Assembly (NCBI GenBank): GCA_013177945.1
Contig: JABLXW010000001.1
Location: 62,001 to 126,000, forward strand
DNA: 64,000 bases
Direction of reading: 5' to 3'
Source of the DNA: Bacillota bacterium
Lineage (GTDB): Bacteria > Bacillota > DSM-12270 > Thermacetogeniales > Thermacetogeniaceae
A program made the translations under genes and the position numbers. Positions 562 through 27,890 of the stretch are shown one piece after another (position 1 is the stretch's first letter; each line of letters starts with the position of its first letter). The notes below the pieces were generated by a model, which saw nothing but the letters and a program-made list of their open reading frames with translations, was not told where the DNA came from and did no database searches.

Positions 562-1517
562 GCCTCTTAGAGGTAAGGGAACTGGTGAAGCACTACGCAG
601 GAAAAAGGGGGATATTTGCGGGTCATCGGGAAAAGGTACGGGCGGTGGACGGCGTCTCTTTCTCCCTGGCCCGGGGAGAGACCCTGGGCCTGGTGGGGGA
701 GAGCGGCTGCGGCAAGAGCACCCTGGGGCGGCTGGTGGTGCGGCTGGAAGAACCTACGGCCGGGAAAATTCTTTTTGCTGGCGAGGAGATCACTGCCTGG
801 ACGGGGAGAAAGCTGCGAGAGCTGCGCCGCCGGGTCCAGATCGTCTTCCAGGACTCTTATTCCTCGCTCAACCCGCGCCGGACGGTGGGGGCAATCATTG
901 AGGAACCCCTGGCCAATTTCGGCGTGGCGAAAGAGGAGCGCCGGGAGCGGGTGCGTGAGCTTTTAACGCTCGTCGGCCTGGAACCTGGGGATGCGCCAAA
1001 ATACCCGCACGAATTCAGCGGGGGCCAGCGCCAGCGCATCAACATCGCCCGAGCGCTGGCCTTAGAGCCGGAACTGATTGTCTGCGACGAGCCCGTTTCC
1101 AGTTTGGACGTCTCCATCCGGGCACAGATCTTGAATCTGCTGCGGGAGCTGAAAAGACGACTCAATCTATCGTACCTCTTCATATCCCACGACCTGGCGG
1201 CGGTGAAGTATCTTGCCGACCGGGTGGCGGTGATGTACCTGGGCAAGCTCGTGGAGATCCTGGCGGCAGAAGGCCTCGTATCACAGGCCCGCCACCCCTA
1301 CACCCGGGCGCTTCTACAGGCGGTGCCGGAACCCGACCCGCGGCAAAGAACCGGCCAAAAACCGGTGGTGCGGGGCGAGCCGCCCGACCCGGCGAATCCC
1401 CCGCCGGGCTGCCGCTTTCACCCCCGCTGCCCGCAAGTTCGCGGCGTTTGCCGGAAAGAGGAGCCCGTTCTGAAGGAGGTGGGGAAGGGTCATCTGGTGA
1501 GGTGCCATTTGAGTTAG
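552..1517 (+). CDS. Dpp/Nik-type ABC transporter ATPase (DppF/OppF family)
   Basis: Second ATPase of the importer, about 320 residues, full length for the family. It shows Walker [10 protein letters not shown], the Q-loop QD, signature FSGGQRQR, Walker [13 protein letters not shown], switch histidine FISHDL, and the C-terminal motif CRFHPRCPQ. The GTG at 552 overlaps the stop of the preceding ATPase, so translation is probably coupled; a second GTG at 558 is an alternative start. A substrate-binding lipoprotein follows after 62 bases. No permease genes lie between, so these ATPases either have permeases upstream of the window or serve permeases encoded elsewhere in the block. Confidence 0.93.
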
Positions 1518-1579
1518 CGTACCTTTCGTAACGATCCGGGTGTACAAAGGGCGATAACTGGAGAAAGGGGTGCAGAAAC

Positions 1580-3148: not shown

Positions 3149-3169
3149 AAGATTCAGGGAGGAAGCTTT

Positions 3170-4108
3170 ATGACAACAGAAAGGCTGGATCCGGCAGGGG
3201 GAGCCCCGGATTGTTCAGGGTATTCGTTGAAGGACCCCCATTTCTGGACAGAGACGTGGAACGAGGCGCATCGCCATTCCCTATCTGCCAGGCGGCGTCC
3301 TGACCTAAACCCTATAGAATACTGGAACCGGCTGGCGGGGCAAGTTGAACGCTGGACCGATCAGGCGAACGCCAGAGGACGTGTGGCCCGGGTACTGGCC
3401 TGGCTCGAGCAGCAGGGAGTACTGCACCCAGAAATAGAGGTGCTGGACATTGGTGCTGGAGCAGGTACTTTCACCATTCCTCTGGCCCCGCAGGTAAAAA
3501 AAGTAGTGGCCCTGGAACCGGCTCTGGCCGTACTGGCCGCCTTGCAAAAGAAGGTGGAAGCGGAAGGGCTGACAAACGTTCAATTTCTGGACCTAGAATG
3601 GGAGAAGATTGACCCAGTGGTAGAGCGCCTGGCCGGCAAGTTCGACCTGGTCTTTGCCTCCCTCACGCCGGGGGTGCGGGATGTGGAAACCCTTGAAAAA
3701 ATGATGGCCTGCTCCCGCCGGTGGTGTTTTTTGTGCGACTATGCCGGCAGGCGCAGTGCTCCTGGACGGGAGGAGCTGTGGCGCCTGCTCTTCGGCGAGG
3801 AAATGCCCATGCCTGGGTACGATATTATCTATCCCCTTAACTATCTGTACGCTAGCGGTTATTGTCTCTCTTTTCAGACCTGGGAGGATGACTGGGGGGA
3901 TGAGTTGCCGGTTGAGGAGGCGGTGGCCGGGTTGGAGGAGTTTTTCCGGCTCTACACGGAGGTTACCCCGGAGATTAAAAAGACAATTGCCGGGTACGTG
4001 GAGCAGCACGCAGTCAATGGGGTTTACAGGGAGGAATACCGGGTGCGCCTGGGCATGATCCTCTGGACGGGGGGTGAAAAATGGAAGGCCGAAACAGGCG
4101 CCTTTTGA
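3170..4108 (+). CDS. class I SAM-dependent methyltransferase associated with ABC importer
   Basis: A cytoplasmic Rossmann-fold methyltransferase of 312 residues. SAM motif I (VLDIGAGAGT) is at residues 91-100, followed by the acidic VALEP strand. The C-terminal half contains blocks FDLVFASLTP, YPLNYLYASGY and VTPEIKK. The same blocks recur in the methyltransferase at 29605, so the two are paralogues. RBS GGGAGGAAG precedes the ATG. Position directly between two substrate-binding protein genes suggests that it modifies a small molecule handled by the importer, or processes an imported compound. The substrate is unknown; no family name beyond class I methyltransferase is justified. Nothing marks it as nicotianamine synthase. 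Confidence 0.85.
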   Translation: MTTERLDPAGGAPDCSGYSLKDPHFWTETWNEAHRHSLSARRRPDLNPIEYWNRLAGQVERWTDQANARGRVARVLAWLEQQGVLHPEIEVLDIGAGAGTFTIPLAPQVKKVVALEPALAVLAALQKKVEAEGLTNVQFLDLEWEKIDPVVERLAGKFDLVFASLTPGVRDVETLEKMMACSRRWCFLCDYAGRRSAPGREELWRLLFGEEMPMPGYDIIYPLNYLYASGYCLSFQTWEDDWGDELPVEEAVAGLEEFFRLYTEVTPEIKKTIAGYVEQHAVNGVYREEYRVRLGMILWTGGEKWKAETGAF

Positions 4109-4186
4109 GAGAAACATTAAGTTTGACAAACGATACGTGGGTACATGATGGGTAGGTAATTGATATTCGGTTAATGGGAGGAAGAG

Positions 4187-5737
4187 ATGATAAAGATAAA
4201 ATATGGTAAGTTCACTTCAGTCTGGTGTTTAATTCTTCTCGTCCTGGCCGGCCTGCTTGCCGGCTGCGGGAGTAAGGAGCCGGCGGCATCAGCAACCCGG
4301 GAACTGGTGATCGGTGTCGGGCGGGACTTTTACAAGGGGCCGGAGAGCAGCTGCTTTGTGCACGGCAGCACGGGCGTGTGGGAGAGCCTCACCTACCTCA
4401 ATGAAAACCTGGAGCCGGTACCTCTGCTGGCCGAAAAGCTCGTCTCCGATGACACGGCCAAGGTATGGACGGTGTATCTGAGGAAGGGAGTTAAATTCCA
4501 TGATGGGGCACCGCTTAATTCGGAGGCGGTGGTAAAGAGCGTGGAGCGCCTACAAAGGCGGGCGCAATTCGACGAGTACGGAACTTTTTTGAACCTGGAT
4601 CGAGTTGAGGCAGCAGGTGACCGGACGGTGAGGTTTACCTTCAACAAGCCGGAGCCGGTTTTTCCGGCTAAAGTGGCTTATCACGGCTGCCCCATTTTCA
4701 GCCCGCAGAGCTTTGACGCTGAAGGAAGAATTGTTCATCCTTACGGGACGGGGCCTTTCAAGTATGCTGAATACAAAAAAGGAGAAGCCCTGGTGCTGGT
4801 CCGCAACGAAGAGTATTGGGGTGGCAAACCCAGGCTGACAAAAGTGACTTTTAAAGTCATTCCCGACCCCTCCACCCGCCTGGCTGCCCTGCAGACAGGT
4901 GAAATTCAGGCCGTAGCCGATGTGGGTGGTATTTTGCCGGAGCAGGTTCCGGCCATAAAGAGCGATTCACAACTGGCTTTATCTTCCCGGCCTGTTACCA
5001 CAACCCACTACCTGCTATTTAACAACAAGAAACCGCCTTTTAACGACCGGCGCTTGCGCCAGGCGGTCAGCCTTTTTATCGACAGGCCCCAGCTTGTTAA
5101 AGAGGTGCTCGGCGGTTACGGTGAGCCGGCGGATACAGTTTTCACGCCTCTGGCAAAGCATCTAGTAGAGAGGGGATTGTGGAAAACCGACGGGGAAAAA
5201 GCGAGATCGCTGGCAGCCCAGGCACTCGGTACCGGCAGGTCCCGGCGTGTCGAGTTTGTCATCAGCACTGCTCTTGCCAACCGCTGGCCTTACAAACAGA
5301 TAGCTGAGATCCTCCAGGCGCAGTTGCGGGATATCGGCCTTGAGGTGGAGATCAAGCTGGTGGAGGCCGGTGCCTGGAAGGATGCTCTTGCGAGCGGGGA
5401 ATATCACATTACCCTCTCCCCTTACACCCTGATGACCGGCGACCCGGACTTCTTCTTCGGCCGCTGGGTTTCTTCCGGCGGGCAGATGAACGTGCAGAGG
5501 GGTGTGGGATACATCAATCCCGAGGCGGACCGGCTGGTGGAGACTGCAGCTGCCGAACGAGATCCGGTAAAGAGAAGGGAGCTTTATGCTGAGCTGCAAC
5601 GACTGGTGGCGCGGGATGTGCCTCTCTGCCCCATTTACCACGATGTATGCCTGTACGCGACCAGAAAAGATGTTCAAGACTTAAAACTCGATCCTTTCTT
5701 CAAGCCAAGCCTGGATAAAGCCTGGGTTGAGGAGTAA
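4187..5737 (+). CDS. family-5 substrate-binding lipoprotein (DppA/NikA type)
   Basis: Second solute receptor of the block, 516 residues, with a lipoprotein signal peptide ending in LAGC at about residues 24-27. The domain carries KVWTVYLRKGVKFHDG, YGTGPFKY, NEEYWGGKP and STRLAALQTGEIQA blocks that mark SBP family 5. RBS GGGAGGAAG is 6 bases before the ATG. It is a diverged paralogue of the 1580 protein rather than a recent copy. Another importer component does not follow; downstream lies a Gate-domain membrane protein. Ligand unknown; the neighbourhood argues for a metal or metal chelate. Confidence 0.92.
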   Translation: MIKIKYGKFTSVWCLILLVLAGLLAGCGSKEPAASATRELVIGVGRDFYKGPESSCFVHGSTGVWESLTYLNENLEPVPLLAEKLVSDDTAKVWTVYLRKGVKFHDGAPLNSEAVVKSVERLQRRAQFDEYGTFLNLDRVEAAGDRTVRFTFNKPEPVFPAKVAYHGCPIFSPQSFDAEGRIVHPYGTGPFKYAEYKKGEALVLVRNEEYWGGKPRLTKVTFKVIPDPSTRLAALQTGEIQAVADVGGILPEQVPAIKSDSQLALSSRPVTTTHYLLFNNKKPPFNDRRLRQAVSLFIDRPQLVKEVLGGYGEPADTVFTPLAKHLVERGLWKTDGEKARSLAAQALGTGRSRRVEFVISTALANRWPYKQIAEILQAQLRDIGLEVEIKLVEAGAWKDALASGEYHITLSPYTLMTGDPDFFFGRWVSSGGQMNVQRGVGYINPEADRLVETAAAERDPVKRRELYAELQRLVARDVPLCPIYHDVCLYATRKDVQDLKLDPFFKPSLDKAWVEE

Positions 5738-5974: not shown

Positions 5975-6937
5975 GTGCAGCTCATTTTAGATGTCCTGCC
6001 AAATGTCCTAAAGCTGTGGAAAAGTGTGTTGCCTTCCATGCTGCTTGGTTGCTTTCTCGGCAATCTGTTTCAAAATACCGTTCTTCTGCAGCGCCTGGGC
6101 CGGGTAATGCAGCCCCTGGCGCGGCTGGGCCGTTTGCCTGCGGGCTGTGCGACACCCCTCACCTTGTGCCTGGCCGACCGGATTGCCGCCTACACCATGC
6201 TGGCCGAGCTGAAAAATACCGGGGTAGTCGGGGCCCGGGAGGTGGTGGTTTCTTTTCTGGTTTCCGCCCTTCCTACGGGGATCTATTATACGATATTTTA
6301 CTTCAGCCCGGCGGTTATGGCCTCCCTGGGGTGCCATACCGGAGCCGTATACCTGGCAATATACCTTGGCATAAGTTTAATGATCGGCGCCGTGGGAATG
6401 CTGCTGGGCAGGTTGCTTTTGCCGCTGCCGGATCAAGATCAGGAAGAGGGTGATCGAAGCCGGGAAACGGTTGGTTTATCCTGGCGGGATAAGCTGGCTG
6501 AAGCGGTGCGCCGCACGCTTCCCGCTTTTTGCCGTCTGGCTGTGGTATTCATGCCCGTCACCTTTCTGGTAGCGATCCTGCTGCATACGGACCTTGTCAA
6601 CCAAATATTGCGGCAGGTTGAACCTGTCTTAAGTTACCTGGGCCTGCCGGCCCCTGTGATCCTCGTTATTACTACAGGTGTAATCAGCATGGTTGCAGCC
6701 ATAGGCGCCCTCGGCCCCATCCTGCAGGCCGGTTTGGTCACTCCGGCCGAGGCGGTTATCGCCTTGCTGGTTACTTCGGTGCTGCATTACCTGTATGAAT
6801 TCTGGAGCAGTGGGCTGCCGACCAACATTTCTATTTTCGGACCCAAATTAGGCGGGAAAGTAAGCCTGGCAGCGCTGGTGGTGCGGGAGTGTGCGACTTG
6901 CCTGGCAATAGGGTTGGTGGTTGTCTTGTTTAATTAA
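5975..6937 (+). CDS. Gate/nucleoside-recognition domain membrane protein
   Basis: A polytopic membrane protein of 320 residues with roughly eight hydrophobic segments, resembling the nucleoside recognition (Gate) family that includes SpmA/SpmB, YlbJ and the core of FeoB. Two homologous halves are suggested: MLLGCFLGNLFQN near residue 20 and a second gate block with VIAVFMPVTF-like sequence near 190. The GTG at 5975 follows AAAGGTGGGG at good spacing. The location among NikA-type receptors and next to a DUF4198 gene suggests metal or cofactor transport, but Gate proteins have varied substrates. A short decayed copy of part of this gene lies at 12671-12727. Confidence 0.75.
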   Translation: MQLILDVLPNVLKLWKSVLPSMLLGCFLGNLFQNTVLLQRLGRVMQPLARLGRLPAGCATPLTLCLADRIAAYTMLAELKNTGVVGAREVVVSFLVSALPTGIYYTIFYFSPAVMASLGCHTGAVYLAIYLGISLMIGAVGMLLGRLLLPLPDQDQEEGDRSRETVGLSWRDKLAEAVRRTLPAFCRLAVVFMPVTFLVAILLHTDLVNQILRQVEPVLSYLGLPAPVILVITTGVISMVAAIGALGPILQAGLVTPAEAVIALLVTSVLHYLYEFWSSGLPTNISIFGPKLGGKVSLAALVVRECATCLAIGLVVVLFN

Positions 6938-7051
6938 CGTTTCTCCCTGATGTAACAGCGCTTTAAGTGAACATCTCAGGAGTCGTTGCCGGGTAGATGG
7001 GGTTTAATTTCTTAAGTATCTATTAAATTACAGTTTAAGGAGTGGTGGAGG

Positions 7052-7804
7052 ATGGGTGAAAAACCGAAAATCGCCTTGCGCGATACCACGGACTTGATGG
7101 TATACGGCCACGAAGTGTGGCTGGAGATGGCCGGCAGCCACGGCCACGCAGGCGGCAACGTGGAGGTGTATGTGAAATGGGGGCACAATATGCAGACGGA
7201 CGGGCTGGCCCGGAAAGAAGGCATGACCACGCTGGTTGTGGCTCCGGGTGGGGAAAAAGAAGAGTTGGCCATCGGCGATGGAGGCCCCGATTATTATATC
7301 CTGCGTCTTTCTGCCCCTGCCGAAGGGTTTTATCACGTTGTTGTTCAAAATACCGGCAGCTACGTGCTGGATAAGGAGGGCAAGTATCATCAGGGTACCC
7401 GCAGGGAACACCCGGATGCGGCCCAGGCCGTTTTATATAACCAGTACGCGCAGACTTTCGTACCGGTGGGACACGACCTGGAGGGTGTTCCCCAGCGGGC
7501 CGGAATACCATTGGAAATAATACCGGCAGTATGGAAACAATGGCGGGTGGGTGATGAAATCGGCCTGCAGGTACAATTCCGCGGTGAGCCGCTGGATGGT
7601 GTGGCCCTGGATGTGGCCTGCAACGGGCCTGGTGGATACCGGCAGTGGCAGGAAATGACGGGCGGGGACGGCCGCATCAATCTGCAGGCCCGGGACCCCG
7701 GCCGCTACCTGGTGGTGGCCCGCTACCGGGTGCCGGAAGGGGAAGAAGGGGTGTATGATGCCCTGTCCCTGACGGCAACATTGTGCTTTATTGTGACTAA
7801 ATAA
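7052..7804 (+). CDS. DUF4198 (NikM-type) domain protein
   Basis: A 250-residue beta-rich protein of the DUF4198 family (PF10670), which Pfam has linked with nickel transport complexes. The histidine-bearing N-terminus (YGHEVWLEMAGSHGHAG, then KWGHNM) and the middle block PVGHDLEG are candidate metal-binding segments; the C-terminus has the family pattern GDEIGLQVQFRGEPLDG and GRYLVVARYR. RBS GGAGTGGTGGAGG fixes the ATG at 7052. No signal peptide or membrane segment is visible, unusual because most family members are exported. A paralogue with the same blocks is at 43834. It probably binds a metal or chelate within the importer system; the role is inferred. Confidence 0.8.
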   Translation: MGEKPKIALRDTTDLMVYGHEVWLEMAGSHGHAGGNVEVYVKWGHNMQTDGLARKEGMTTLVVAPGGEKEELAIGDGGPDYYILRLSAPAEGFYHVVVQNTGSYVLDKEGKYHQGTRREHPDAAQAVLYNQYAQTFVPVGHDLEGVPQRAGIPLEIIPAVWKQWRVGDEIGLQVQFRGEPLDGVALDVACNGPGGYRQWQEMTGGDGRINLQARDPGRYLVVARYRVPEGEEGVYDALSLTATLCFIVTK

Positions 7805-13094: not shown

Positions 13095-13162
13095 TCAGTG
13101 GCTCCTCGCAAGGAAAGGGGTACGCGGCGGCTTTTTTAAGCTGTCAGGCAGGGTGTTTGATA

Positions 13163-14101
13163 GTGGATTCCAGTTTGCTTCTTATCAGGGACCTGTCGGT
13201 GGAATTTCCGGGTCCCGGGGGTTCAATCCGGGCAGTGGACAGGGTTGACCTGGAGATTGAAAAAGGGGAGCGGGTGGCCCTGGTCGGGGAAACAGGCAGC
13301 GGCAAAAGCGTCCTGCTTCTCTCCCTCCTTCGGCTTTTGCCGGCCGGTGCCCGGATTGCCGGAGAAATCTGGTACAAAGGAAGGAACCTTCTCCGTTTAT
13401 CCGAGGATGAACTCTGCCGGATCCGGGGGCGGGAGCTGGCCTACATTCCGCAAGGGACAGGAAACGCCTTGAACCCCGTCTTAACCGTGGGAATTCAAGT
13501 GGCCGAGCCTCTGATCGTCCACCTGGGCTTCAAAAAGAGGCCCGCTCTGGCAAAGGCGGTTTCTCTGCTCGGGCAACTGGGCATCCCCGAGGCTCACAAA
13601 AGAGCCTTTGAGTACCCGCATCAGTACAGCGGAGGGATGAAGCAGAGGGTGCTGGTGGCCATGGGGGCAGCTGCCGAGCCCCAGGTTCTCCTTGCTGATG
13701 AACCTACGAAGGGAGTGGACTGGGAAAGGCGAGAAGAAATCATAAACCTCTTTCAAAGTTTGGCAGAAAAGACTATCTTAACCGTTACTCATGACCTCTG
13801 TTTTGCCGAAAAGTTTGCCCAAAAGGTGGCAGTAATGTATGCAGCCCAAATTGTGGAGGTGGCTCCCCGGGCGGAATTCTTCAGACAGCCGCTCCACCCT
13901 TACGCCCAGGCGTTGCTGGCCGCCTTACCCCCCCGCGGCTTGCGGCCCCTGGCCGGCTACGCCCCTGAGCACGCCAGCTATGGAGAACCGGGCTGTCGTT
14001 TCCGAAAGCGCTGCCCCCGCGCTTTCCACCACTGCCAGGCGGAGCCACCCCTTTTAGAACAAAACGGTCGCCAGGTGAGGTGCTGGCTCTATGTTAGTTA
14101 A
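13163..14101 (+). CDS. Dpp/Nik-type ABC transporter ATPase (DppD family)
   Basis: ATPase of about 312 residues with Walker A GETGSGKS, signature YSGGMKQRV, Walker B VLLADEPTKGVDW, switch histidine TVTHDL and the C-terminal CRFRKRCPRAF motif. A longer frame opens at 13022 but would run through the attenuator, and AGGCAGGG sits before the GTG at 13163, so that start is chosen; TTG 13157 is an alternative. Its stop overlaps the ATG of the next ATPase. It is first in an operon leading to the CobN-like and ExbB-like genes, but no permease is encoded with it. Confidence 0.9.
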   Translation: MDSSLLLIRDLSVEFPGPGGSIRAVDRVDLEIEKGERVALVGETGSGKSVLLLSLLRLLPAGARIAGEIWYKGRNLLRLSEDELCRIRGRELAYIPQGTGNALNPVLTVGIQVAEPLIVHLGFKKRPALAKAVSLLGQLGIPEAHKRAFEYPHQYSGGMKQRVLVAMGAAAEPQVLLADEPTKGVDWERREEIINLFQSLAEKTILTVTHDLCFAEKFAQKVAVMYAAQIVEVAPRAEFFRQPLHPYAQALLAALPPRGLRPLAGYAPEHASYGEPGCRFRKRCPRAFHHCQAEPPLLEQNGRQVRCWLYVS

Positions 14102-14819
14102 AGCAGTTGCCCTGAGCAAGACCTATAAAATCGGGTGGCTCAAGAAAAGGTCCATTAAGGTGATCAAAGAGGCCGAGATCTTTATCGATGAAGGGGAGAC
14201 CGTAGGCCTCGTCGGGGAAAGCGGGAGCGGCAAAACCACCCTGGGGCTCCTTTTAACAGGTCTTTTAAAACCCGATGAGGGTCAGATTTTCTTTAACGGG
14301 AAGGAAATCACCAGACTGACTCCGTCTGAGAATAAGGATTTCCGGCGCCAGGCCCAGATCATCTTCCAGCACCCCGAGGCGGCCTTCAACCCCAAATGGA
14401 GATTGATCCGGAGCCTGGCCGAACCGTACAGGCTGCACGGAATCCCCTTTACAGAGAAGGTCCTCTTAAAGCAACTGGAAGCCGTCGGCCTGTACGCCGA
14501 GCACCTGGGCCGCTACCCCTCCCAGCTGAGCGGGGGAGAACTGCAGAGGGCAACCATCGCCCGCGTCATGGTGCTTGAGCCGAAGTTTCTCGTGCTGGAT
14601 GAACCCACCAGCATGCTGGATGTCATTACCCAGGCGCAGATCATCAGGCTTTTGCAGGCGATTCAAAAGGAAAAAGGGGTGGCCTATCTCTTCATCAGCC
14701 ACGATTTAGAACTGGCCCGGTTGTTCTGCCGGCGGATTTACCGCCTGGTGGACGGGAAGCTGCAGGAGCAGCCGCCGGTGCGCCAGCCTCACGAGATCCT
14801 GCAACAGGGTGCTTTTTAA
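14091..14819 (+). CDS. Dpp/Nik-type ABC transporter ATPase (DppF/NikE family)
   Basis: A 242-residue ATPase with Walker A GESGSGKTT, Q-loop FQHPEAAFNPK, signature LSGGELQRA, Walker B FLVLDEPTSMLD and switch FISHDLEL. It lacks the C-terminal cysteine-bearing extension of the longer DppF proteins, as is common for NikE-like subunits. It overlaps the preceding ATPase by 11 bases, indicating translational coupling. Together the two would energise a Dpp/Nik-type permease encoded elsewhere, for example one of the pairs further along this window. Confidence 0.9.
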   Translation: MLVKAVALSKTYKIGWLKKRSIKVIKEAEIFIDEGETVGLVGESGSGKTTLGLLLTGLLKPDEGQIFFNGKEITRLTPSENKDFRRQAQIIFQHPEAAFNPKWRLIRSLAEPYRLHGIPFTEKVLLKQLEAVGLYAEHLGRYPSQLSGGELQRATIARVMVLEPKFLVLDEPTSMLDVITQAQIIRLLQAIQKEKGVAYLFISHDLELARLFCRRIYRLVDGKLQEQPPVRQPHEILQQGAF

Positions 14820-14835: not shown

Positions 14836-16215
14836 TTGCAGCGCTGGAAATGGATTTTGTTCTTGTTCGCAGGTTATCTCTCTGTTGCCTGTTTTGCCTC
14901 TGCTGCTTTGGGGCAATCAGATCTGAGCGTCCTCCGCTTTGACGAAAAAATCAAAAAAGAAACCATCGATCCCGAAAGATATCCCAGCCGGGAGGCCTAT
15001 GCCGTGGGGGAAAAGCTGGCCCGGGAGGCTATGAGCAGGTTCAGAGCAGAAAAAGGGAGTTACCCCCCGCGGGTAGCCGCAGTGATCTGGGGCAAGGAGA
15101 CGGCGGGGAGGGAAGGGCCGATGGTTTCCTTTGCCCTTGCCCTGCTTGGCGTCAGGCCCCGGTGGGATCCATCTGGAAAAGTGGTTGGCCTGGAGTTGAT
15201 CAGTCCCAGTGAATTGGGCCGGCCGCGCACCGATGTCATAATGATAGCCACAGGCCTGTTTCGCGACCTTTTCAAGAACCAGGTGATTATGCTGGACCGG
15301 GCCCACCGCCTGGCCCTGGCGGCTTCTTACCAGAGCATCACCTCAGCCTATCCCGACCTCCAGGGGGCCCTGGATGCCTCCCTTGCCTCTTTAGAAAGAG
15401 CCAGACTGCTCACAAAAGGGAGGGAGCCATTGGACTCCAACTATGTTGCCGGGTGCTGGATAATTGCCGTCCGCGAGCTCCTGGCCAAAGGCCACCAGCC
15501 AGAGGAAGCCGGCGAACTGGCGGCGGCCAGGATTTTTGCTCCACCTGAAGGAGAGTTTGGTTCCGGAGTCGATGTTGTCGGATCTCCGCAGGACCCGGAA
15601 AAGGTGGCCAACCAGTTTGTGAACCGCCTGGGCAATGTTTATTCCGAGACGGATTGGGGTGCAAACCGGCCCGAACTTTTCAAGGAACTGCTGAAGGGGT
15701 GTAATGTACTCTTCCACTGTTGCAGCGAAAGTTCGATCCTTGACCAGGACGACCTGCCCCTGGAATACACCTACGTGCCGGGGCTGAGGGCGGCCCTGGA
15801 AAAATGGGGGGGAGGGGAGGTGGAAAAAATTACCGGGACACCCCATGGCCTGCAGGGAGTTGAGACCGGCAAAGAACCAGGACCGCAGGAAGATTCCCGG
15901 GTTCGGCTTGGCGAAAAGGGGAGCGCTCCGGCGGTTCAGAAAAAGCCATCAGCAGCAGGGGTAGAACCGGTCCAAACAAAATCCCAACAGCAGCAGGCAA
16001 GTTCAGCGCCTTTGCCGCCCCGAGCACCCGAGGTTAAACCAGGGCCGCTGATCTTTGAAGTGGAGCCTGTACCATTGCCTGCTGCCCATTCCCAGGGGCA
16101 AGCTTCCTGCTGGCCTGCTGTTGGAGTCCTTCTGGCCCTGCTTGCGGTGGGCGGAGCAAAGGGGCTCCTCCAGCACAGGCGAGAATTTGGCCAGATGCAT
16201 CCAATTGGTTTTTGA
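14836..16215 (+). CDS. secreted, membrane-anchored CobN-like chelatase fragment
   Basis: About 459 residues. A signal peptide (hydrophobic run then ASAALG) is followed by a region matching the C-terminal part of the CobN/BchH chelatase large subunit (PF02514): YPPRVAAVIWGKET, LLGVRPRWD, GLELISPSELGRPRTDV and GLFRDLFKNQ. Later come VANQFVNRLGNVYSETDWG, a Pro/Gln-rich linker and a C-terminal membrane helix near residues 430-450. CobN is normally cytoplasmic and over 1100 residues, so this is a short extracytoplasmic version. TTG 14836 is chosen because AAAGGGGGCG precedes it. The ExbB-like and DUF2149 genes follow, suggesting an energised complex handling cobalt, nickel or a tetrapyrrole outside the membrane. 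Function is inferred. Confidence 0.78.
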   Translation: MQRWKWILFLFAGYLSVACFASAALGQSDLSVLRFDEKIKKETIDPERYPSREAYAVGEKLAREAMSRFRAEKGSYPPRVAAVIWGKETAGREGPMVSFALALLGVRPRWDPSGKVVGLELISPSELGRPRTDVIMIATGLFRDLFKNQVIMLDRAHRLALAASYQSITSAYPDLQGALDASLASLERARLLTKGREPLDSNYVAGCWIIAVRELLAKGHQPEEAGELAAARIFAPPEGEFGSGVDVVGSPQDPEKVANQFVNRLGNVYSETDWGANRPELFKELLKGCNVLFHCCSESSILDQDDLPLEYTYVPGLRAALEKWGGGEVEKITGTPHGLQGVETGKEPGPQEDSRVRLGEKGSAPAVQKKPSAAGVEPVQTKSQQQQASSAPLPPRAPEVKPGPLIFEVEPVPLPAAHSQGQASCWPAVGVLLALLAVGGAKGLLQHRREFGQMHPIGF

Positions 16216-16228
16216 GGAGGAGTTGAAA

Positions 16229-16933
16229 TTGGGTCTGCTGTACGGATTGAAGGAAGTAATGCACCAGCTTTCTGCCATCCTGCTGGTTCCCACCATCGCC
16301 GTGCTTCTGTTCTTTATTTGTTTTGCTGTAATTGAACTGGGCAGCCTGCTGGTGGAATGGCTCTTTTCGAGGCGTGCTGCTTTAACCGATGTTTCTGATT
16401 TGGTGAGAAAAATCAAAATGAGCAGGCACCGGGTGGAACTGGGAAGACTGGTTGAGGAAAGCAATATGCTCCGCAGGCAAAAAGAAGCGCTGGGCGCGCT
16501 GCTGGCGCAGTCAGAACTGCCCCACGCTGCCTGGGAGGCCCTGGCGCGCAGGATGCTTACTCGGGAGGAGCTTTTTTACGCAAAGATAGTGACCAAAACA
16601 GAACTCGTGGCCCGGTTAGGCCCCATGCTCGGTTTGATGGCAACACTGATCCCTCTCGGCCCGGGGCTAATTGCTCTGAGCCAGGGTGATACCAAAAAAC
16701 TTGCCGAAAGTTTGCTGACGGCGTTCGACGCCACCGTGCTTGGCCTGGCGTCGGCCGCCATCGCCTATTTCATTTCCAGGGTGCGCCGGCGGTGGTACGA
16801 GGATTACATGAGCATCCTGGAAACCGTTACTGAAGCTTTGCTGGAGGTGAGCAAGAGCCATGAGGTCGCTGCGGAAAAAGAAGGGGCTGCTGACTTCGGC
16901 GGAGGAAGCAAATCCCTTAGAGGGAGCGATTAA
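16229..16933 (+). CDS. MotA/TolQ/ExbB-family proton channel protein
   Basis: A 234-residue membrane protein with a long N-terminal hydrophobic helix (residues about 12-45), a cytoplasmic segment rich in charged residues, and two further helices: LGPMLGLMATLIPLGPGL and ATVLGLASAAIAYFI. These match the TolQ/ExbB pattern, in which the last two helices carry the proton-channel function. TTG 16229 follows GAGGAGG by 8 bases; an upstream in-frame extension overlaps the previous gene and is unlikely. It sits between the CobN-like gene and DUF2149, the order known from CobN-associated clusters in methanogens and some bacteria. It probably transduces ion-motive force to the external CobN-like partner. 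Confidence 0.82.
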   Translation: MGLLYGLKEVMHQLSAILLVPTIAVLLFFICFAVIELGSLLVEWLFSRRAALTDVSDLVRKIKMSRHRVELGRLVEESNMLRRQKEALGALLAQSELPHAAWEALARRMLTREELFYAKIVTKTELVARLGPMLGLMATLIPLGPGLIALSQGDTKKLAESLLTAFDATVLGLASAAIAYFISRVRRRWYEDYMSILETVTEALLEVSKSHEVAAEKEGAADFGGGSKSLRGSD

Positions 16934-17186
16934 CATTGTAGACGCCATGCTGGTCTTCGCCTGCGGCTTGATGCTTGCCCTGGTGATTTACTGGAAAGTT
17001 CCGATCATCCCTCAGGGAGAAAGAATCGAGTTAAAACAAGCGAGGGAAGTTTCCCATCTCCCCGAAGTGCGGCGCGACCTGCTGGAAACACCTGGGGAAG
17101 GAAAGGCTTATGAAAAGGTGGGGACAGTCTTCAAAGACCCCGAAACAGGAAAACTCTTTATGGTAACCACAGAACAGTTGAGATAG
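16860..17186 (+). CDS. DUF2149 protein (ExbD-like partner)
   Basis: A 108-residue protein with the family signature NPLEGAINIVDAMLVFACG, which forms a single membrane helix preceded by the NxxD motif expected of ExbD-like proteins. The remainder (residues about 50-108) would be extracytoplasmic. Its ATG lies inside the end of the ExbB-like gene, a 74-base overlap, so expression is tightly coupled. DUF2149 co-occurs with CobN and ExbB-like genes; together they likely form an energy-transducing complex. Confidence 0.82.
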   Translation: MRSLRKKKGLLTSAEEANPLEGAINIVDAMLVFACGLMLALVIYWKVPIIPQGERIELKQAREVSHLPEVRRDLLETPGEGKAYEKVGTVFKDPETGKLFMVTTEQLR

Positions 17187-17195
17187 GGGGGAACA

Positions 17196-19172
17196 ATGGT
17201 GGCGAGAAAAGCCAGGTTTTTTACTCTGGCGGTTTTATTCCTTTTTGCCGTAACCCTTTTTAATGGGACGGCCTTGGCTTATGCGAAGGATTTCAGCGTC
17301 AAGGTCGACGGAAGGGAACTGGCTTCTGGGTCATCACTGCTTAATGAGCAGGGAAGAATTATGGTTCCTGTTCGTGGCTTGGGTGAGGCGCTGGGATTAA
17401 AAGTCAGGTGGTACGGCGATGAAAGGATGGTCACCCTGCAAAAAGGGGACCTGCTGCTGAAGCTCACTGTCGGGAGCAGGGCGGCTGAGAAAAACGATGG
17501 AAAAGTTTTTATGGAGGTTGCGCCGAAGATCGTAAACGGCAGGTGTTTTGTCCCTCTCCGCTTTGTCGCCCAGACCTTTGGCTGCCAGGTGGGGTGGGAC
17601 CATGGAAGGCAACTGGCTGACGTAAAGAGCGGCAGGGTGAAGGAGGTATCGCTGGGGACGCTCAGCCCACTTGAACCGTTGAATATCTTAAATGCTCTGG
17701 GCGCCTGGTACCGGATGAACCACCTGGGCTTCACTCATGTCCAGCTCGTTCAGTATAATTCCCAGTTGAACATTGTGCCGTGTCTTGCCGAAAAGTGGGA
17801 TGTCTCTCCGGACGGGAAGGCAGTCACCTTTTACCTGGTAAAGGATGCCCGGTGGCACGACGGGAAGCCGGTGACAGCCGAAGACGTGAAGTTTACCTTT
17901 GAATACAAACTCAAGCACTTGAAAGAGCTTGCCCGGTGGACGGTGGCCGCAATCGAGAGAATCGAAGTTGCCGACGAGCACACAGTTACCTTCTACTTGA
18001 AGGAACCCCTGGTCTATTCCCTCTTTAAGGATCTAGCCATCGGCATCGGGATCATCTTGCCGAAGCACATCTGGGAGAACGTTGAGGATCCCAAGAAATA
18101 CACCGCAAGGGAGAACCTCATTGGTAGCGGCCCCTTTATTTTCGAGTCCTACGACCCCGCTTCCCAGACCGCCACTTTCAAGGCCAACCACGACTACTTT
18201 GCCGGGCAGCCGAGCGTCGAAAAGGTCAAGGTGAAGTATTACAAAAACGTTGATGCCCTGGTAATGGCGCTTAAAAAGGGAGAAATCGCTGCTACATATG
18301 ACTATGCCATGCCCGTTCCGGCCTCTTATGCCCCTGCCTTGCAGGATGTTCCCGGCCTGGAGCTGGGGGTAATCCCCGACTTGGGAATCATGATCTACAT
18401 GGCTTTTGGCAGGGAATACCCGGTGCGGGAGAAACCTTTCCGGGAAGCGGTCTCTTACGCCATCGACTACGAGATGCTGGTGAAGGCGATTGCCGGGGAT
18501 TACGGCGAGGTTCCGGGACGCGGCATCGTGCCCCCGAGCCTCCCCGGGTATGACCCGTCGATCCCCAGGCTAAAACAGGACCTGGCGAAGGCCAATGCCC
18601 TCCTCGACCAGATGGGCCTGAAAGACAAAAACGGGGACGGGATAAGAGAGCTCCCGGACGGCTCGAAGCTGAGCATTCCGGTTACGCCCGCCACAAAGAA
18701 AGGAAAGGAAACGATGATGGTGAGGGCCGCGGAGGTAATCTGCAGCCACCTGAAAAAGGTTGGAATCGATGCGTATATCGATCCTGAGGTCCTCGGTAAT
18801 GAAGAGAAGTGGCAGCAACGGGTCTGGAACGACCGCGACTACTGGTTCTACCTGGGCTATGCCACACCGGGCGCGGCCATCTACGACGGGGGTTTGATGT
18901 ACTTTGTGGATGCCCAGGGAGCTTTCGGCACCCGCGCCGATCCGGAATACGTGCGGATCTACCAGAAAGTCAGGCAGGCAAAAGACGATTCGGAGTGGAC
19001 TGCTGCCTTAAGAGAAGCCCAACACTACCATGCCCGCGAACTGCCGGGGCTCGCCCTGATCTGGGGGAAGGCCCTGTATCCGTACCGGACGGACAAGTTT
19101 AGCGGCTGGGTGATCCGCAGCGGGTTCGGCCCCGTAAACTACCAGACCTGGTTCAGCCTGCGCGCTCATTAA
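17196..19172 (+). CDS. substrate-binding protein with N-terminal copper amine oxidase-like stalk domain
   Basis: A 658-residue exported protein. A cleavable signal peptide (ending ALAYA) has no lipobox. Residues about 30-145 form a copper amine oxidase N-terminal-like domain (PF07833), with repeated MVPVRGLGEALG and FVPLRFVAQTFG motifs. Residues about 165-658 are SBP family 5, with VTFYLVKDARWHDG, GSGPFIFESYD and NHDYFAGQP. The stalk domain may hold the receptor at the cell surface in place of a lipid anchor. It starts 9 bases after DUF2149, so it belongs to the CobN-like operon. It is closely paralogous to the frameshifted gene at 20057. Confidence 0.88.
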   Translation: MVARKARFFTLAVLFLFAVTLFNGTALAYAKDFSVKVDGRELASGSSLLNEQGRIMVPVRGLGEALGLKVRWYGDERMVTLQKGDLLLKLTVGSRAAEKNDGKVFMEVAPKIVNGRCFVPLRFVAQTFGCQVGWDHGRQLADVKSGRVKEVSLGTLSPLEPLNILNALGAWYRMNHLGFTHVQLVQYNSQLNIVPCLAEKWDVSPDGKAVTFYLVKDARWHDGKPVTAEDVKFTFEYKLKHLKELARWTVAAIERIEVADEHTVTFYLKEPLVYSLFKDLAIGIGIILPKHIWENVEDPKKYTARENLIGSGPFIFESYDPASQTATFKANHDYFAGQPSVEKVKVKYYKNVDALVMALKKGEIAATYDYAMPVPASYAPALQDVPGLELGVIPDLGIMIYMAFGREYPVREKPFREAVSYAIDYEMLVKAIAGDYGEVPGRGIVPPSLPGYDPSIPRLKQDLAKANALLDQMGLKDKNGDGIRELPDGSKLSIPVTPATKKGKETMMVRAAEVICSHLKKVGIDAYIDPEVLGNEEKWQQRVWNDRDYWFYLGYATPGAAIYDGGLMYFVDAQGAFGTRADPEYVRIYQKVRQAKDDSEWTAALREAQHYHARELPGLALIWGKALYPYRTDKFSGWVIRSGFGPVNYQTWFSLRAH

Positions 19173-20056: not shown

Positions 20057-22083
20057 ATGAAAGGAGTGTTGCGTGACGTGAGGTTTAAAGCGCTACGACT
20101 GCTTGCCCCGGTTGTTATCCTCTTGTTTACTGCCAGTATTTTATGGGGAATTCACCCTGCTTTTGCCGCCCCTAAGATAAGCGTTCTCGTGGACGGCCGG
20201 AGGGTTTCTGCCGATGTGCCTCCCTTTATTGAAAACGGAAGAACCCTTGTTCCTGTAAGAGCCCTCGCGGAGAGCTTGGGAGCTAAGGTAATTTGGGAGG
20301 AGAAGGAAAAACTATCACTATTGAAGCCGAAGGCAAGAAGGTCAAGCTTCAAATCGGCAATCGCTTGGCTTCTTCGGACGGCCAGACAACCGTGATGGAA
20401 GTGGCTCCCAGGATAGTCCAGGGTCGGGCTTTTGTTCCCTTGCGCTTTGTGAGCGAGCACCTGGGGGCGGCCGTGAAATGGGACGGAAATACGGGTACCG
20501 CTAGGATATTCAAGGAAACCCTTCGCCCGCTCGTCCTGGGTACCGTCAGAAAAGGCGGTTTTGGAACCTTAAATCCTAGAGTAGCCGATTGGTTGTCCCA
20601 GTCGAACATTGAAGGGGTCACACATGTGGGCCTGGTAAAGTTCACCCCCGATCTGAAGCTAGCTCCCTGTCTGGCAGAAAGGTGGGAAATATCCCCCGAA
20701 GGCAAAGCCGTTACTTTTTACCTCCGCAGGAATGCAAAGTGGCATGATGGGACACCAGTAACTGCTGAAGACGTGAAGTTTACTTACGAGGCTAATTTAA
20801 AGCACCACTTCATGACTAACTGCAATCTCATCTGGGAACCATTTTTTGAGCGGGCAGAAATAAAGGATCCCTGGACGGTTACTTGCCATTTCAAGCGTCC
20901 GGTGGCTTACGCCGCACTCCTTGAAGAAGCCGGAAACTACATGCTCCCTAAGCATATCTGGGAAGATATAGTGGCCACTGGGGACCCGGGGAAGGCTACA
21001 GGCCGCGAGTTGATGATTGGCAACGGCCCCTTTATCTTCGAGCGTTACGATCCTGCAGAAAGAATAGCTTACTTAAAAGCCAACCCCGATTACTTTGCCG
21101 GGAAACCGGTCCTCAATGAAGTTCGTTACAAGATTTTCGACACCATGGATCAGGCCGTTCTGGCCCTCTGCAAAGGGGAAATTGATGGCTTGGGCACCTA
21201 CTATGAATCGGTAGCACCAGCCTACGCTGAGGCTCTGAAAAAGACAAAAGGTGTTTCCCTGGGTCTCACGCCCAACACGGGGATTAGCTTCCTCCTCCAG
21301 TTTAATGTGCAAAAGTACCCATTGAACCTTAAGGAAATGCGCGAGGCAATCTCTCTGGCCCTTGACTATAACCAGCTGGTGAAAATGTTTGCCGGGGGTT
21401 ACGGGGAAGTCCCCGGAAGGGGTTTTATTCCCCCGCGTGTTCCGGGTCACAATCCAGAACTCTCCAGGCTGGCGTATGATCCCGAAGGCGCAAAGCGAAT
21501 CCTCGACTCTTTAGGTTTGGTGGACAAAAATGGCGATGGCTGGCGCGACCTTCCAACTGGGGAAAAGCTTATCCTTGCCCTTATCCCCTATGGATCTCCT
21601 GATGAATTATATATCCGGATGGCCGAGGTTATAGCCAGTTATCTAAAGAACGTGGGTCTTAATGCTACCCTTGACCAGGAAGTAATCGGCAATGTTGATA
21701 AAGCCAGCAAGAAGCTCCACGATGATAAGGACTTCTGGTTGTGCGTGAGGAGGGCCTACCCCATGATCACCCAGGTCATTGGCGGGCTGTGCCACTTTGT
21801 TGACCTGGGCAAAACCAAGGAAGGAATAGGCGCCTGGGGCACTTCCGATGACCCGCAGTTGCAAGAGCTCTATTTTAAAATGCTCTATGCCAGTAACGAA
21901 AAAGAGGCCTTAGAGGCGATTCGGGAGCTGCAGGATTACTACAACAAGACGTTGGTGGGAATCGCCTTGAGCTGGAACGAGCTGTTATATCCCCACAGGA
22001 TCGACAAATACACCGGTTGGATTACTTACCCCAGGTGTCCCTTTAATTACTTCTCCTGGTGGAGTTTAGAGCCTGCAGAATGA
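20057..22083 (+). pseudogene. stalk-domain substrate-binding protein, frameshifted in an A5 run
   Basis: Two frames together encode one protein like the 17196 gene. The first part (signal peptide ending AFA, then stalk motif LVPVRALAESLGAKV) is in one frame to about 20310. The second resumes from TITIEAEGKK through FVPLRFVSEHLG and a complete SBP family-5 domain with NGPFIFERYDPAE and NPDYFAGKP. The frames would join if the A5 run at 20307-20311 had one more A. A sequencing error, a true mutation or transcriptional slippage are all possible. The receptor half is fully intact, so the gene may be alive. GTG 20078, preceded by AAAGGAG, is the likelier start than ATG 20057. Confidence 0.82.
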
Positions 22084-24766: not shown

Positions 24767-25792
24767 ATGTATTTACCAAAAAGTCCCCTGGAATTGTCCA
24801 TAGAGCTTACAACACGTTGTAATCTTGATTGTCCACACTGTCTAGCTGAAGCAAGCAAAGAAGGCAAGAGTATACCCTATGATAGAATACTATCACTCGT
24901 AGATGAAGCTCAGCTTATAGGCGTAAGGATATTGGATTTAGGAGGCGGTGAACCACTTCTTTACGATGGTTTTTTCGACTTATGCGAGTACATATTGTCG
25001 AAAGGGTTAAAGTTGTCTTTTGTTACAAACGGTTTGCTTATACCAACTAGGATTAATTCATTGCGGAGAATTTTAAAAAAATATGATGACTTGTTGGGAG
25101 TAGGGGTCAGTTTAGACGGCCCTTCACCAGAACTCCATGGTTATTTTCGGCCCAAAGAAACCTTTGATTCTGCAATTGAGGCAATTATTATGTTGCGTGA
25201 ATCAGGCGCCAAAGTTTCTGTTTCATGTGTCCTAAATAAAGAAAATATCAAGGTAATTCCAGAATTTTTAAGTTTCCTTTCTGCACTTAATATTTCAGAT
25301 GTAAGATTCCTACCATTTATGCCTTTAGGCAGAGGTGCTAAGTTTAAGAGCGAGGTTCTTTCTTCTAGAGCAATATATGATTTTCTTCAGCAAAAGCATT
25401 CATGGAACAAAATATTTAAAGGTAACATAGGCTTTCAAATGCCCTGGGAATTTCTTTTTCTTCCCCCTAAAAAACGCCAGGCTGGGCCATGTGAAGCAGG
25501 ATACACGCGCCTTTGGATAAATTCCCATGGAGATGTAACGCCTTGCGCATATATGATAGACGTTATTATAGGCAATATCTATCATGATTCTATAAGCAAA
25601 ATTTGGCATGACTCGTTTGTATTAAAGAAACTGCGCGACCCCACCTTGCTTAAAGGCCCCTGTGCCACCTGTGCTTACCGTGACGGCTGCCGGGGAGGCT
25701 GCCGGGGCCTAGCTTATTTTCTGGAGGGTGATTATTTATGTTCGGATCCTTACTGCCCGATTGTTGTCCAAGGCAAAGAGACACAGGCTTAA
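24767..25792 (+). CDS. radical SAM/SPASM peptide maturase
   Basis: A 341-residue enzyme with the radical SAM cluster motif CNLDCPHC (Cys 18, 22, 25), a GGGEPLL SAM-binding motif, and a C-terminal SPASM region with several cysteines (GPCEAGY, TPCAYM, CATCAYRDGCRGGC). SPASM enzymes use auxiliary iron-sulfur clusters to modify peptides. It follows the 33-residue peptide gene and its stop overlaps the start of the PqqD-like gene by one base. It is the likely catalyst for the core peptide modification. The chemistry (sulfur-to-carbon, carbon-carbon or other) cannot be predicted here. Confidence 0.9.
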   Translation: MYLPKSPLELSIELTTRCNLDCPHCLAEASKEGKSIPYDRILSLVDEAQLIGVRILDLGGGEPLLYDGFFDLCEYILSKGLKLSFVTNGLLIPTRINSLRRILKKYDDLLGVGVSLDGPSPELHGYFRPKETFDSAIEAIIMLRESGAKVSVSCVLNKENIKVIPEFLSFLSALNISDVRFLPFMPLGRGAKFKSEVLSSRAIYDFLQQKHSWNKIFKGNIGFQMPWEFLFLPPKKRQAGPCEAGYTRLWINSHGDVTPCAYMIDVIIGNIYHDSISKIWHDSFVLKKLRDPTLLKGPCATCAYRDGCRGGCRGLAYFLEGDYLCSDPYCPIVVQGKETQA

Positions 25793-26016
25793 TGCAGCGC
25801 CAGGAGGGGGACAGGCTTGTACTTTATCGGGGGCACCAGCTTTTTGTTTTAGGAAGCTATTCGGCAGAAATATGGCATTTATGTGACGGCCAGCACACAA
25901 TAAAGGATATGGCTGAAATAGTAGTTAACAAATATAACGTTGCCAGGGAAAGAGCTATGGAAGAGATAACCGGTTTTCTTAATCAATTAATGGAAAAAAA
26001 CCTAATTGTTATATAA
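25792..26016 (+). CDS. PqqD-like peptide recognition (RRE) protein
   Basis: A 74-residue protein with the PqqD winged-helix fold pattern: LVLYRGHQLFVLGSYSAEIW, then the CDGQHTIKDMAEIV helix and a C-terminal FLNQLMEKNLIV strand. PqqD domains bind leader peptides and present them to radical SAM partners. The ATG at 25792 overlaps the previous stop as TAATG; a longer in-frame version would lie inside the radical SAM gene and is less likely. It supports the view that the upstream short peptide is a maturation substrate. Confidence 0.88.
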   Translation: MQRQEGDRLVLYRGHQLFVLGSYSAEIWHLCDGQHTIKDMAEIVVNKYNVARERAMEEITGFLNQLMEKNLIVI

Positions 26017-26043
26017 AACGCCTCTTTGGAAAGAAGGTTAAAC

Positions 26044-27003
26044 ATGAGTTTAGGTCTTCATCTGGTAACTTTAGAAATCACCGGCAGGTGCAACCTATCC
26101 TGCAGCCACTGCTACCGGGGAAGTGAACTTCCAGAAGACTTTAGTGATTTTAATTTGCTTTTGGGCTACCTTGCTAAAGTAAAGCCACATTTCATTACTG
26201 TTTCCGGGGGAGAACCTTTGGTTTTGGAGAACATTTTTGAGTTAGCTAAAGAACTTAAAAAAGTGTGCCGGAAGCTTTTGCTTACTACCAACGGCACTTT
26301 AGTCCGGGAATTTCCGAGGGAATATTTTAAGATTTTTGACGAAGTACAGATAAGCTTAGACGGCGATGAATCAACTCACGATAAGATAAGAGGAAGAGGG
26401 GTTTTCGAAAAGGCGGTTAGCGCTGCCTGCTATTTGAAAGAAATTGTGCCGGTTTCTTTTCTCTGTACAGTAAATGCAGACAACCACCATAAGCTGGATG
26501 CCTTTGTCCAAATAGCCAAAGAAAATGGCGCTGTAGCCAAGATTGCCCGCATGTGCGGTTTTGGAAAAAATAACCTGGCTCCTTTAACTGACCCTTCTAT
26601 TTGGAAAGACGTGTTGTTAAAAGCTTTTCACGCTGGCCTCCCCAACGATGACCCTTTAAATTTCTGGTTTAACGAAAAAAAGAAAAAATCTGTAAAACCC
26701 AACAAAATAGCCGGCGGCTGCACTGCCGGTATTGCCGGGGTGGCCATTTCACCTGAAATGGACGTTTACCCTTGTGTAAAGCTAAGGATTCCCGCTGGAA
26801 ATCTTAAAAACCAAAGTTTAAGAGAAATCTGGCTAAATTCACCATTATTTATAACCTTGCGCAACTGGCATAACTTAAAAGGAAAATGCTCCGGCTGTGA
26901 ATACATTAGCATCTGCCGGGGGTGCCGGGCCGATGCCTGGGCGCGCTCAAAGGATTACCTGGCCGCTGACCCCTTATGCTGGCTGGAAGGTGGGGGCCGG
27001 TGA
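26044..27003 (+). CDS. second radical SAM/SPASM enzyme
   Basis: A 319-residue radical SAM protein with CNLSCSHC (Cys 16, 20, 23), SGGEPLV, and a C-terminal SPASM region (GGCTAGIAG, YPCVKLR, CSGCEYISICRGC). The ATG at 26044 follows AAGAAGG; a TTG 18 bases upstream is an alternative. It is distinct from the first enzyme and may carry out a second modification, or form a complex with the SPASM-only protein encoded next, whose start overlaps its stop. Confidence 0.9.
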   Translation: MSLGLHLVTLEITGRCNLSCSHCYRGSELPEDFSDFNLLLGYLAKVKPHFITVSGGEPLVLENIFELAKELKKVCRKLLLTTNGTLVREFPREYFKIFDEVQISLDGDESTHDKIRGRGVFEKAVSAACYLKEIVPVSFLCTVNADNHHKLDAFVQIAKENGAVAKIARMCGFGKNNLAPLTDPSIWKDVLLKAFHAGLPNDDPLNFWFNEKKKKSVKPNKIAGGCTAGIAGVAISPEMDVYPCVKLRIPAGNLKNQSLREIWLNSPLFITLRNWHNLKGKCSGCEYISICRGCRADAWARSKDYLAADPLCWLEGGGR

Positions 27004-27890
27004 AAGAATTCGCTTTAAGCCACCCCTTTATCCTTGCCCTGGCTTTAAACAATTACGACCCGTTCCTTAATCCAGGAAAAGTAGGCATTTTAAGCGAATC
27101 AGCTTACGACCAGGTCTTTGCTTACCTTAAGACAAACCCACCCCAGGGTGTGCTCGTTTTAACAGGCGGAGAGCCTTTTGTGGATTTGCGCTTAAAGGAA
27201 ATTCTTTCCCTGGCGCGAAGCATGAGGTGGCCGGTTTCTGTAGATACCTGGGGCGGCTTTTTGGAGCAGCCTTCATCTTTAAATCTAATTCAGCAGATCC
27301 GCCTGCGTCTTTTTTCTTTAAATCCAGAAAAACATGATCAGATCGCAGGTGAAAAAGATAATTTTCAGAAAATAATGGTTTTTGCCCGCTGGCTGGCTGA
27401 AAATTATAACCAGGAGAAAATCCTGGTCTTCCCGGTTTGCCGGGAAAACACGGAAGAAATAGCTGATATTTTAAGCTGGTGCGCCAAACATAATTTTAAA
27501 GCCAATATTTTTATTGTTCCCCGGCACCATAAATATGCTCTCGAGTTTACGTCTTTCCAACAGATAATCAAAAAGCTGGGAAATTTACCCTTACGTGAGC
27601 TGATCATAGACATCCCCCTGTTAGGCCTGTCCGGCTTTCCCAACCTTTGCCCTGGGGGAAGGCTGGCCATGTTTATTGGCCCGGAAGGGGAAGTAAAACC
27701 CTGCCCCTACTTTCCCCTCCCGCTTAGCCACCTCAAAGAAGGCGTTTTAAAAGCCTGGGTTTGCTTGCAGGCAAAGCTTACGGAATTAAATAAAGGCTGT
27801 GCTTGCTGTCGTTATTTTTCTTTGTGTGGCGGCGGCTGCCTGGCAAATAAAACCGGGGCGGGAAAAGACTACTACTGTCCTCTCCAATGA
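27000..27890 (+). CDS. radical SAM-like protein lacking the catalytic CxxxCxxC (SPASM-type partner)
   Basis: A 296-residue protein with a radical SAM-like barrel. The usual first-strand cysteine motif is absent: the N-terminus reads PFILALALNNYDPF. The GGEPF motif remains, and the C-terminus has SPASM-like cysteines (CPGGRLAM, KPCPYFP, CACCRYFSLCGGGC). It probably binds auxiliary clusters without starting radical chemistry, so it may be a non-catalytic partner. The layout (PqqD, radical SAM/SPASM, SPASM-only) recalls the GeoRSP systems, from memory only. GTG 27000 follows GGAAGGTGGGGG and overlaps the previous stop by 4 bases. Confidence 0.78.
   Translation: MKEFALSHPFILALALNNYDPFLNPGKVGILSESAYDQVFAYLKTNPPQGVLVLTGGEPFVDLRLKEILSLARSMRWPVSVDTWGGFLEQPSSLNLIQQIRLRLFSLNPEKHDQIAGEKDNFQKIMVFARWLAENYNQEKILVFPVCRENTEEIADILSWCAKHNFKANIFIVPRHHKYALEFTSFQQIIKKLGNLPLRELIIDIPLLGLSGFPNLCPGGRLAMFIGPEGEVKPCPYFPLPLSHLKEGVLKAWVCLQAKLTELNKGCACCRYFSLCGGGCLANKTGAGKDYYCPLQ

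Follow-up and report, generated by a model that had tools for sequence, protein, structure and literature searches.

The HmuS-HmuT-HmuU-HmuV operon of Bacteroidota encodes a heme de-chelatase (PMC12583661, PMC10434189, PMC13227078). De-chelation by HmuS requires His-538 of domain III, and two residues of domain V, His-1209 and Glu-1212, line the same site (PMC12583661). A literature search of partial coverage returned HmuS as a proven de-chelatase and corrinoid operons with B12 riboswitches as a known class; within that coverage there was nothing on a reduced CobN accompanied by ExbB and DUF2149, nor on ExbB operons with Moco riboswitches. The homologues CobN and ChlH are cytosolic, full-length proteins that work with AAA ATPase subunits. 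The locus described here lies in a 64,000-nt stretch of DNA (hereafter the window), in which positions 14836-17186 display the HmuS-type gene context: ExbB (corresponding to HmuU) and DUF2149 (corresponding to HmuV) are encoded beside a CobN homologue. We conclude that this trio is related to the heme de-chelatase module HmuS/HmuU/HmuV, of which it represents a reduced form.

A short CobN-like protein with a motor gene pair

The first protein of the trio, here called the short CobN, matches PF02514 (CobN-Mg_chel; 14836-16212, E 3.5e-53, 181.3 bits against a gathering score of 24.5), and the match is confined to profile positions 718-971 of 1090, that is, domain V and the start of domain VI. 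The original prediction spoke of a CobN-like fragment, and this is exact: domains I-IV are missing outright rather than merely diverged, and the six-domain architecture of HmuS is not found. The NCBIfam model for full-length CobN (TIGR02257) gives 105.8 bits where the cut-off is 822. Among solved structures, CobN 7c6o, HmuS 9d26 and ChlH 4zhj are nearest; a structure model computed from the single sequence had a mean pLDDT of 41 and was not used. The layout is that of a signal peptide, domain V with the start of VI, a linker and a C-terminal anchor (Table 1). The N-terminus is hydrophobic in the manner of a signal sequence, and towards the C-terminus a second hydrophobic segment, at approximately residues 426-446, is followed by basic residues. 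These ends are consistent with anchoring outside the membrane, which supports the extracytoplasmic location proposed at the outset.

The next two proteins also exceed their Pfam cut-offs, in agreement with the predicted succession of a signal-peptide CobN-like protein, an ExbB-like protein and a DUF2149 protein: the former matches PF01618 (MotA_ExbB; E 6.9e-9, 36.0 bits, cut-off 22.9) and the latter PF09919 (DUF2149; E 3.6e-9, 37.3 bits, cut-off 27.1). All three genes were said to overlap. This holds for ExbB and DUF2149, which share 74 nt, but a few nucleotides separate the stop codon of the short CobN from the start of ExbB, which comes after it. The channel protein keeps threonines in both pore helices, the conserved T140 and T170 of the MotA/TolQ/ExbB family; P133, T140, D168 and T170 are invariant across 34 sequences, and Asp28, at the start of the DUF2149 helix, is present in 35/35. 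An aspartate in the helix and threonines in the pore helices are what an ExbB/ExbD-type ion channel needs. Judged by these residues, the two proteins are as expected for an ExbD-like subunit and an ion channel, in line with the ExbB/ExbD-like motor first suggested, and ion coupling is predicted.

Table 1. Features of the short CobN locus, and riboswitches at related loci
Feature	Position	Strand	Details
Dpp/Opp-type ABC ATPase (DppD-like)	13160..14101	+	NCBIfam PRK11022, E 2.4e-71, below cut-off
Dpp/Nik-type ABC ATPase (DppF/NikE-like)	14091..14819	+	TIGR02769 nikE, E 2.9e-65
Short, anchored CobN-like protein	14836..16215	+	459 aa; TTG start; stop 16213-16215; PF02514
Retained CobN/HmuS domain V core	14962..15330	+	Residues 43-165, ELGRPRTDV...TGLFRDLF
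~35-residue insertion (SYQSITSAYPDLQGALDASL...)	15325..15435	+	Residues 164-200; from alignment; common to L048_387
I-F-E-V/I motif before anchor, and C-terminal transmembrane helix	16042..16173	+	
MotA/TolQ/ExbB-family channel	16223..16933	+	TTG start at 16223 or 16229; PF01618
DUF2149 protein, ExbD-like single helix with invariant Asp28	16860..17186	+	PF09919
Solute-binding protein family 5 with N-terminal Cu_amine_oxidN1 domain	17196..19172	+	SBP_bac_5, E 2e-73; PF07833, E 4e-31
Cobalamin riboswitches upstream of type A operons	L017 12208-12401; L048 11596-11782; L049 12025-12208; L052 129-418; L053 7813-8275; L057 8953-9136		
Moco/tungsten riboswitch nearby	L018, L021, L064-L066, L068, L070, L072, L075, L076		Anchored non-CobN partner, often Oxidored_molyb-like

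The order DppD-DppF-short CobN-ExbB-DUF2149-SBP(Cu_amine_oxidN1)-methyltransferase is kept in this genome (G000), in G001 and in the complete genome of Thermacetogenium phaeum (G006), which upholds the proposed tie to Dpp-type ATPases. The DppD-like gene and the solute-binding protein (SBP) gene are both syntenic in L019 and L020, and this SBP is the probable receptor partner. Scores against the NCBIfam equivalog models of the NikABCDE nickel importer fall below the cut-offs (220 of 332 bits for nikE, TIGR02769, with the DppF/NikE-like ATPase; 131 of 393 bits for nikA). In a profile search of 398 genomes sampled across the phylum, intact copies of the short CobN were found in these three genomes only, all of one family; a copy in G005, of the same family, is interrupted by a contig end. 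A search of genome contigs for relatives returned one record, LGFL01000068.1, which is incomplete, and none was found in the viral contigs searched. The source genome belongs with Thermacetogenium, and the carriers, few in number, are thermophilic acetogens from the kin of T. phaeum.

Several other gene sets surround the locus. At 20057-22083 of the window, two reading frames share an SBP gene with a Cu_amine_oxidN1 domain that is intact in G001 (L020 14621-16603). Three radical SAM/SPASM genes, with AhbD/NirJ-like scores below cut-off, and a PqqD-like gene occupy 24767-27890, near repeated SBP and methyltransferase genes, and T. phaeum has a similar radical SAM and ABC set upstream (L117). 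A Gate-domain membrane protein and two DUF4198 proteins are encoded amid SBP genes at 5975-7804 and 43834-44583; similar genes lie near the T. phaeum locus (L118).

Active site, selection and descent

The HFG(T/A)HG motif, which carries the catalytic His-538, is present in the full-length relatives and is absent, with the whole of domain III, from the short CobN. Where domain V of HmuS has the motif LSLDHxxEFMGG, with His-1209 and Glu-1212, the short CobN reads ILDQDDLPLEYTYVPG: in the alignment, position 1209 is occupied by Asp306 and position 1212 by Thr312, the site loop has lost two residues in length, and PG stands in place of the GG that comes after it. The end of domain VI is deleted. 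A split CobN with its other half elsewhere was ruled out in T. phaeum, whose complete genome holds no separate gene for domains I-IV and no extracytoplasmic domain III partner; its single other PF02514 protein is a full-length, cytosolic CobN without a signal peptide. Because domains I-IV, His-538 and the end of domain VI are lost and the site loop is eroded, the short CobN is, to judge from its sequence, unlikely to be a chelatase or de-chelatase, and the metal insertion or removal that the original prediction assigned to it is not supported. Among the columns invariant in other CobNs, the short CobN keeps 17 of 18 in domain V and 7 of 12 in the next stretch. The dN/dS ratio is 0.23-0.24 in all pairs for the whole protein and 0.07-0.13 for domain V, the core of which is the most constrained part of the protein, more so than linker and anchor. 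The kept gene order in three genomes and the low dN/dS indicate a functional gene under purifying selection.

In a tree of CobN domains V-VI, the short proteins group with the anchored full-length proteins L048_387 (99/96) and L055 (100/99), with long branches involved. The ~35-residue insertion (SYxxIxxSYPDLxxxLD) is common to the short proteins and L048_387 and absent from the other CobNs in the alignment, and ahead of the anchor their I-F-E-V/I motif is similar to the R-A-Y-E-I/L of full-length anchored CobNs. Taken together, the tree, the common insertion and the similar pre-anchor motif argue that full-length anchored CobN-like proteins gave rise to the short CobN. An origin from cytosolic CobNs of the same genome was considered as well, and a grouping with cytosolic CobNs was rejected (p-AU 3.5e-5). 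The nearest full-length relative, L048_387, is the second anchored CobN of its locus (387-5321, minus strand; 1644 aa); its active-site motif is HLGRHATFEWLPRK rather than HLGTHGTLEWLPGR, with both histidines kept. In the ExbB tree, the ExbB of the short-CobN group falls inside the group with non-CobN partners (96/92 and 98/99); we do not claim this placement as shown, because grouping with the ExbBs of full-length CobNs is not rejected by the topology test (p-AU 0.14).

Other CobNs are found on the same contig, upstream of the window (L007, L008), where a corrinoid island (C1:28206-32068, C1:42750-46691, C1:48337-56967) contains cobalamin riboswitches and a pair of cytosolic CobNs, of which one is disrupted by a frameshift, along with a ChlI/D-like ATPase, BtuFCD-like genes and genes for a DUF4430/SLH surface protein and a CbiQ-type transporter. 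G001 (L088-L090), where there are cobalamin riboswitches, and G018 (L094-L096) carry as many as six CobN paralogues each, some of them adjacent. These anaerobes are not expected to have an aerobic B12 pathway.

Related motor loci and their riboswitches

DUF2149 occurs in 33 of the 398 genomes of the phylum, and the loci were sorted into three types before riboswitches were searched for. Type A loci encode ExbB-DUF2149, accompanied in most cases by a full anchored CobN and a membrane protein of the DUF2162 type; two of them (L051, L053) have no CobN in the stretch and were assigned by their motor and small membrane-protein neighbour, and several adjoin Dpp-type importers and FmdE (domains examined in L017). 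In type B loci, ExbB-DUF2149 is preceded by an anchored protein, which in several cases has an Oxidored_molyb-like domain with Big_2 or Fn3-associated domains; L066:4261-5952 is an example with the Oxidored_molyb-like domain. Type C comprises the short CobN loci. At the Rfam gathering score, cobalamin riboswitches lie near 7/10 type A and 1/22 type B loci, and Moco/tungsten riboswitches (RF01055) near 10/22 type B and 0/10 type A loci (Fisher p 2.5e-4 for loci with either switch; 0.0014 with one per genus). Both Moco riboswitches of genome G337 flank its ExbB operon. This split suggests that one motor is common to the handling of different metal cofactors, and the operons with Moco/tungsten riboswitches are possibly surface machinery for a molybdenum or tungsten cofactor. 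By extension, ExbB-DUF2149 could be a general ion-driven motor for extracytoplasmic metal-cofactor machines, whether CobN-type, molybdopterin-domain-like or a chimeric miniature such as the short CobN, a generalisation that we regard as possible if somewhat doubtful. Were it true, bacteria would salvage whole metal cofactors, possibly even Moco, via motor-driven surface receptors.

Type C loci have neither a cobalamin nor a Moco/tungsten riboswitch within ~16 kb. No cobalamin, Moco or NiCo riboswitch reached the Rfam gathering score in the window, and a relaxed search (E<=5) of positions 1-26000 gave no credible match. The nearest cobalamin riboswitch in the source genome, ~18.5 kb upstream, precedes the Dpp operon and does not place the short CobN operon in a cobalamin regulon; none was found near the T. 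phaeum locus.

A putative binding role and comparison with known systems

Given that a chelatase is unlikely and that domain V retains its invariant columns almost in full, the short CobN is best explained by a role in binding. Our leading explanation, which we hold tentatively and at slightly less than an even chance, is that it is a non-catalytic extracytoplasmic derivative of the CobN/HmuS type, acting as a motor-coupled tetrapyrrole- or corrinoid-binding adaptor for the adjacent Dpp-type importer. In HmuS, ring carboxylates are predicted to be bound at the conserved surface of domain V; in the short CobN this domain would still bind a carboxylated tetrapyrrole, most likely a corrinoid. ExbB and the aspartate-bearing helix of DUF2149 would draw on an ion gradient to shift the anchored domain into another conformation, and the ligand would thereby be loaded onto, or released to, the SBP and the Dpp-type ABC importer encoded next to the trio. 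The short CobN itself would neither insert nor remove metal. The cargo is the weakest step: a corrinoid is proposed by analogy only with type A, because no cobalamin riboswitch was found in the window or near the T. phaeum locus. Upstream cobalamin riboswitches of the full-length cousins favour the adaptor, and the resemblance of the group's ExbB to that of non-CobN partners counts against it.

Domain V may instead have been repurposed, the short CobN being an ExbB-driven accessory of the Dpp importer for a non-tetrapyrrole cargo (a nickel or cobalt complex, a metallophore or a peptide). This is unlikely but deserves to be taken seriously: the short CobN is linked directly to DppDF and SBP_bac_5, nickel-type NikA/NikE models are among the best albeit below cut-off, DUF4198 proteins and more SBPs surround the locus, the site loop is eroded and no cobalamin riboswitch is near. 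However, a changed ligand would not require that nearly all invariant domain V columns be kept, and the full-length relatives belong to the cobalamin regulon. The constraint on the domain V core, tighter than on linker and anchor, makes it quite unlikely that ExbB-DUF2149 is a generic stator acting on the SBP or surface proteins with the short CobN as a ligand-free scaffold or anchor, even though the anchored partners of most such pairs sampled in the phylum have no CobN part and the ExbB of the short-CobN group is nearer to those of non-CobN loci.

An active chelatase or HmuS-like de-chelatase, in which the short CobN contributes one half of the active site, with domains I-IV coming from a second protein, would suit its homology to HmuS and CobN and the proven iron-releasing context of HmuS-HmuU-HmuV. 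It is very unlikely in view of the missing domain III, the aspartate and threonine in place of H1209 and E1212, the deleted end of domain VI and the full-length T. phaeum paralogue that starts without a signal peptide. The large deletions relative to L048_387 might also mark what is left of a full-length anchored CobN in decay, but frame and synteny are intact in three genomes and dN/dS is ~0.24, down to 0.07 in domain V; on these grounds decay was rejected, and we give it hardly any credence.

The HmuS/HmuU/HmuV arrangement, with which gut Bacteroidota capture iron from heme, thus exists in a reduced, probably non-catalytic form, so that a CobN-like part can serve as something besides a chelatase. 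The pointer to cargo is cobalamin or cobalt for the CobN type and a molybdenum or tungsten cofactor for the sister type.

As in HmuS-HmuT-HmuU-HmuV, an extracytoplasmic anchored CobN homologue is encoded with MotA/TolQ/ExbB and DUF2149 proteins (PMC12583661, PMC10434189, PMC13227078), and the kinship with CobN-ExbB-DUF2149 clusters foreseen in the original prediction is borne out. HmuS, defined by NADH-dependent removal of iron from heme, has ~1450 aa, whereas the short CobN has 459 and lacks domains I-IV and the catalytic histidine; its operon is without HmuY or a TonB receptor, no DUF2162 gene was found in the source genome, and the trio is tied instead to Dpp ATPases and an SBP. The DUF2162-ExbB-DUF2149-CobN operons with cobalamin riboswitches (L017, L048, L049, L052, L054, L057) have the same motor pair, but of another subtype (a DUF2149 mid-region insert; an ExbB split at 100/99), and differ in their full-length CobN with an HxGxH motif, adjacent DUF2162-type membrane protein and upstream riboswitch. 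The closest ExbB and DUF2149 subtype is that of type B (L018, L064, L065, L066, L075 and others, with anchored Oxidored_molyb-like/Big_2 proteins), where the gene directly upstream of the motor likewise encodes a partner with a signal peptide and C-terminal anchor; that partner, however, is not a CobN, and Moco/tungsten riboswitches lie nearby. With cobaltochelatase CobN and Mg-chelatase ChlH, the short CobN shares homology in domain V (7c6o, 9uk9, 4zhj).
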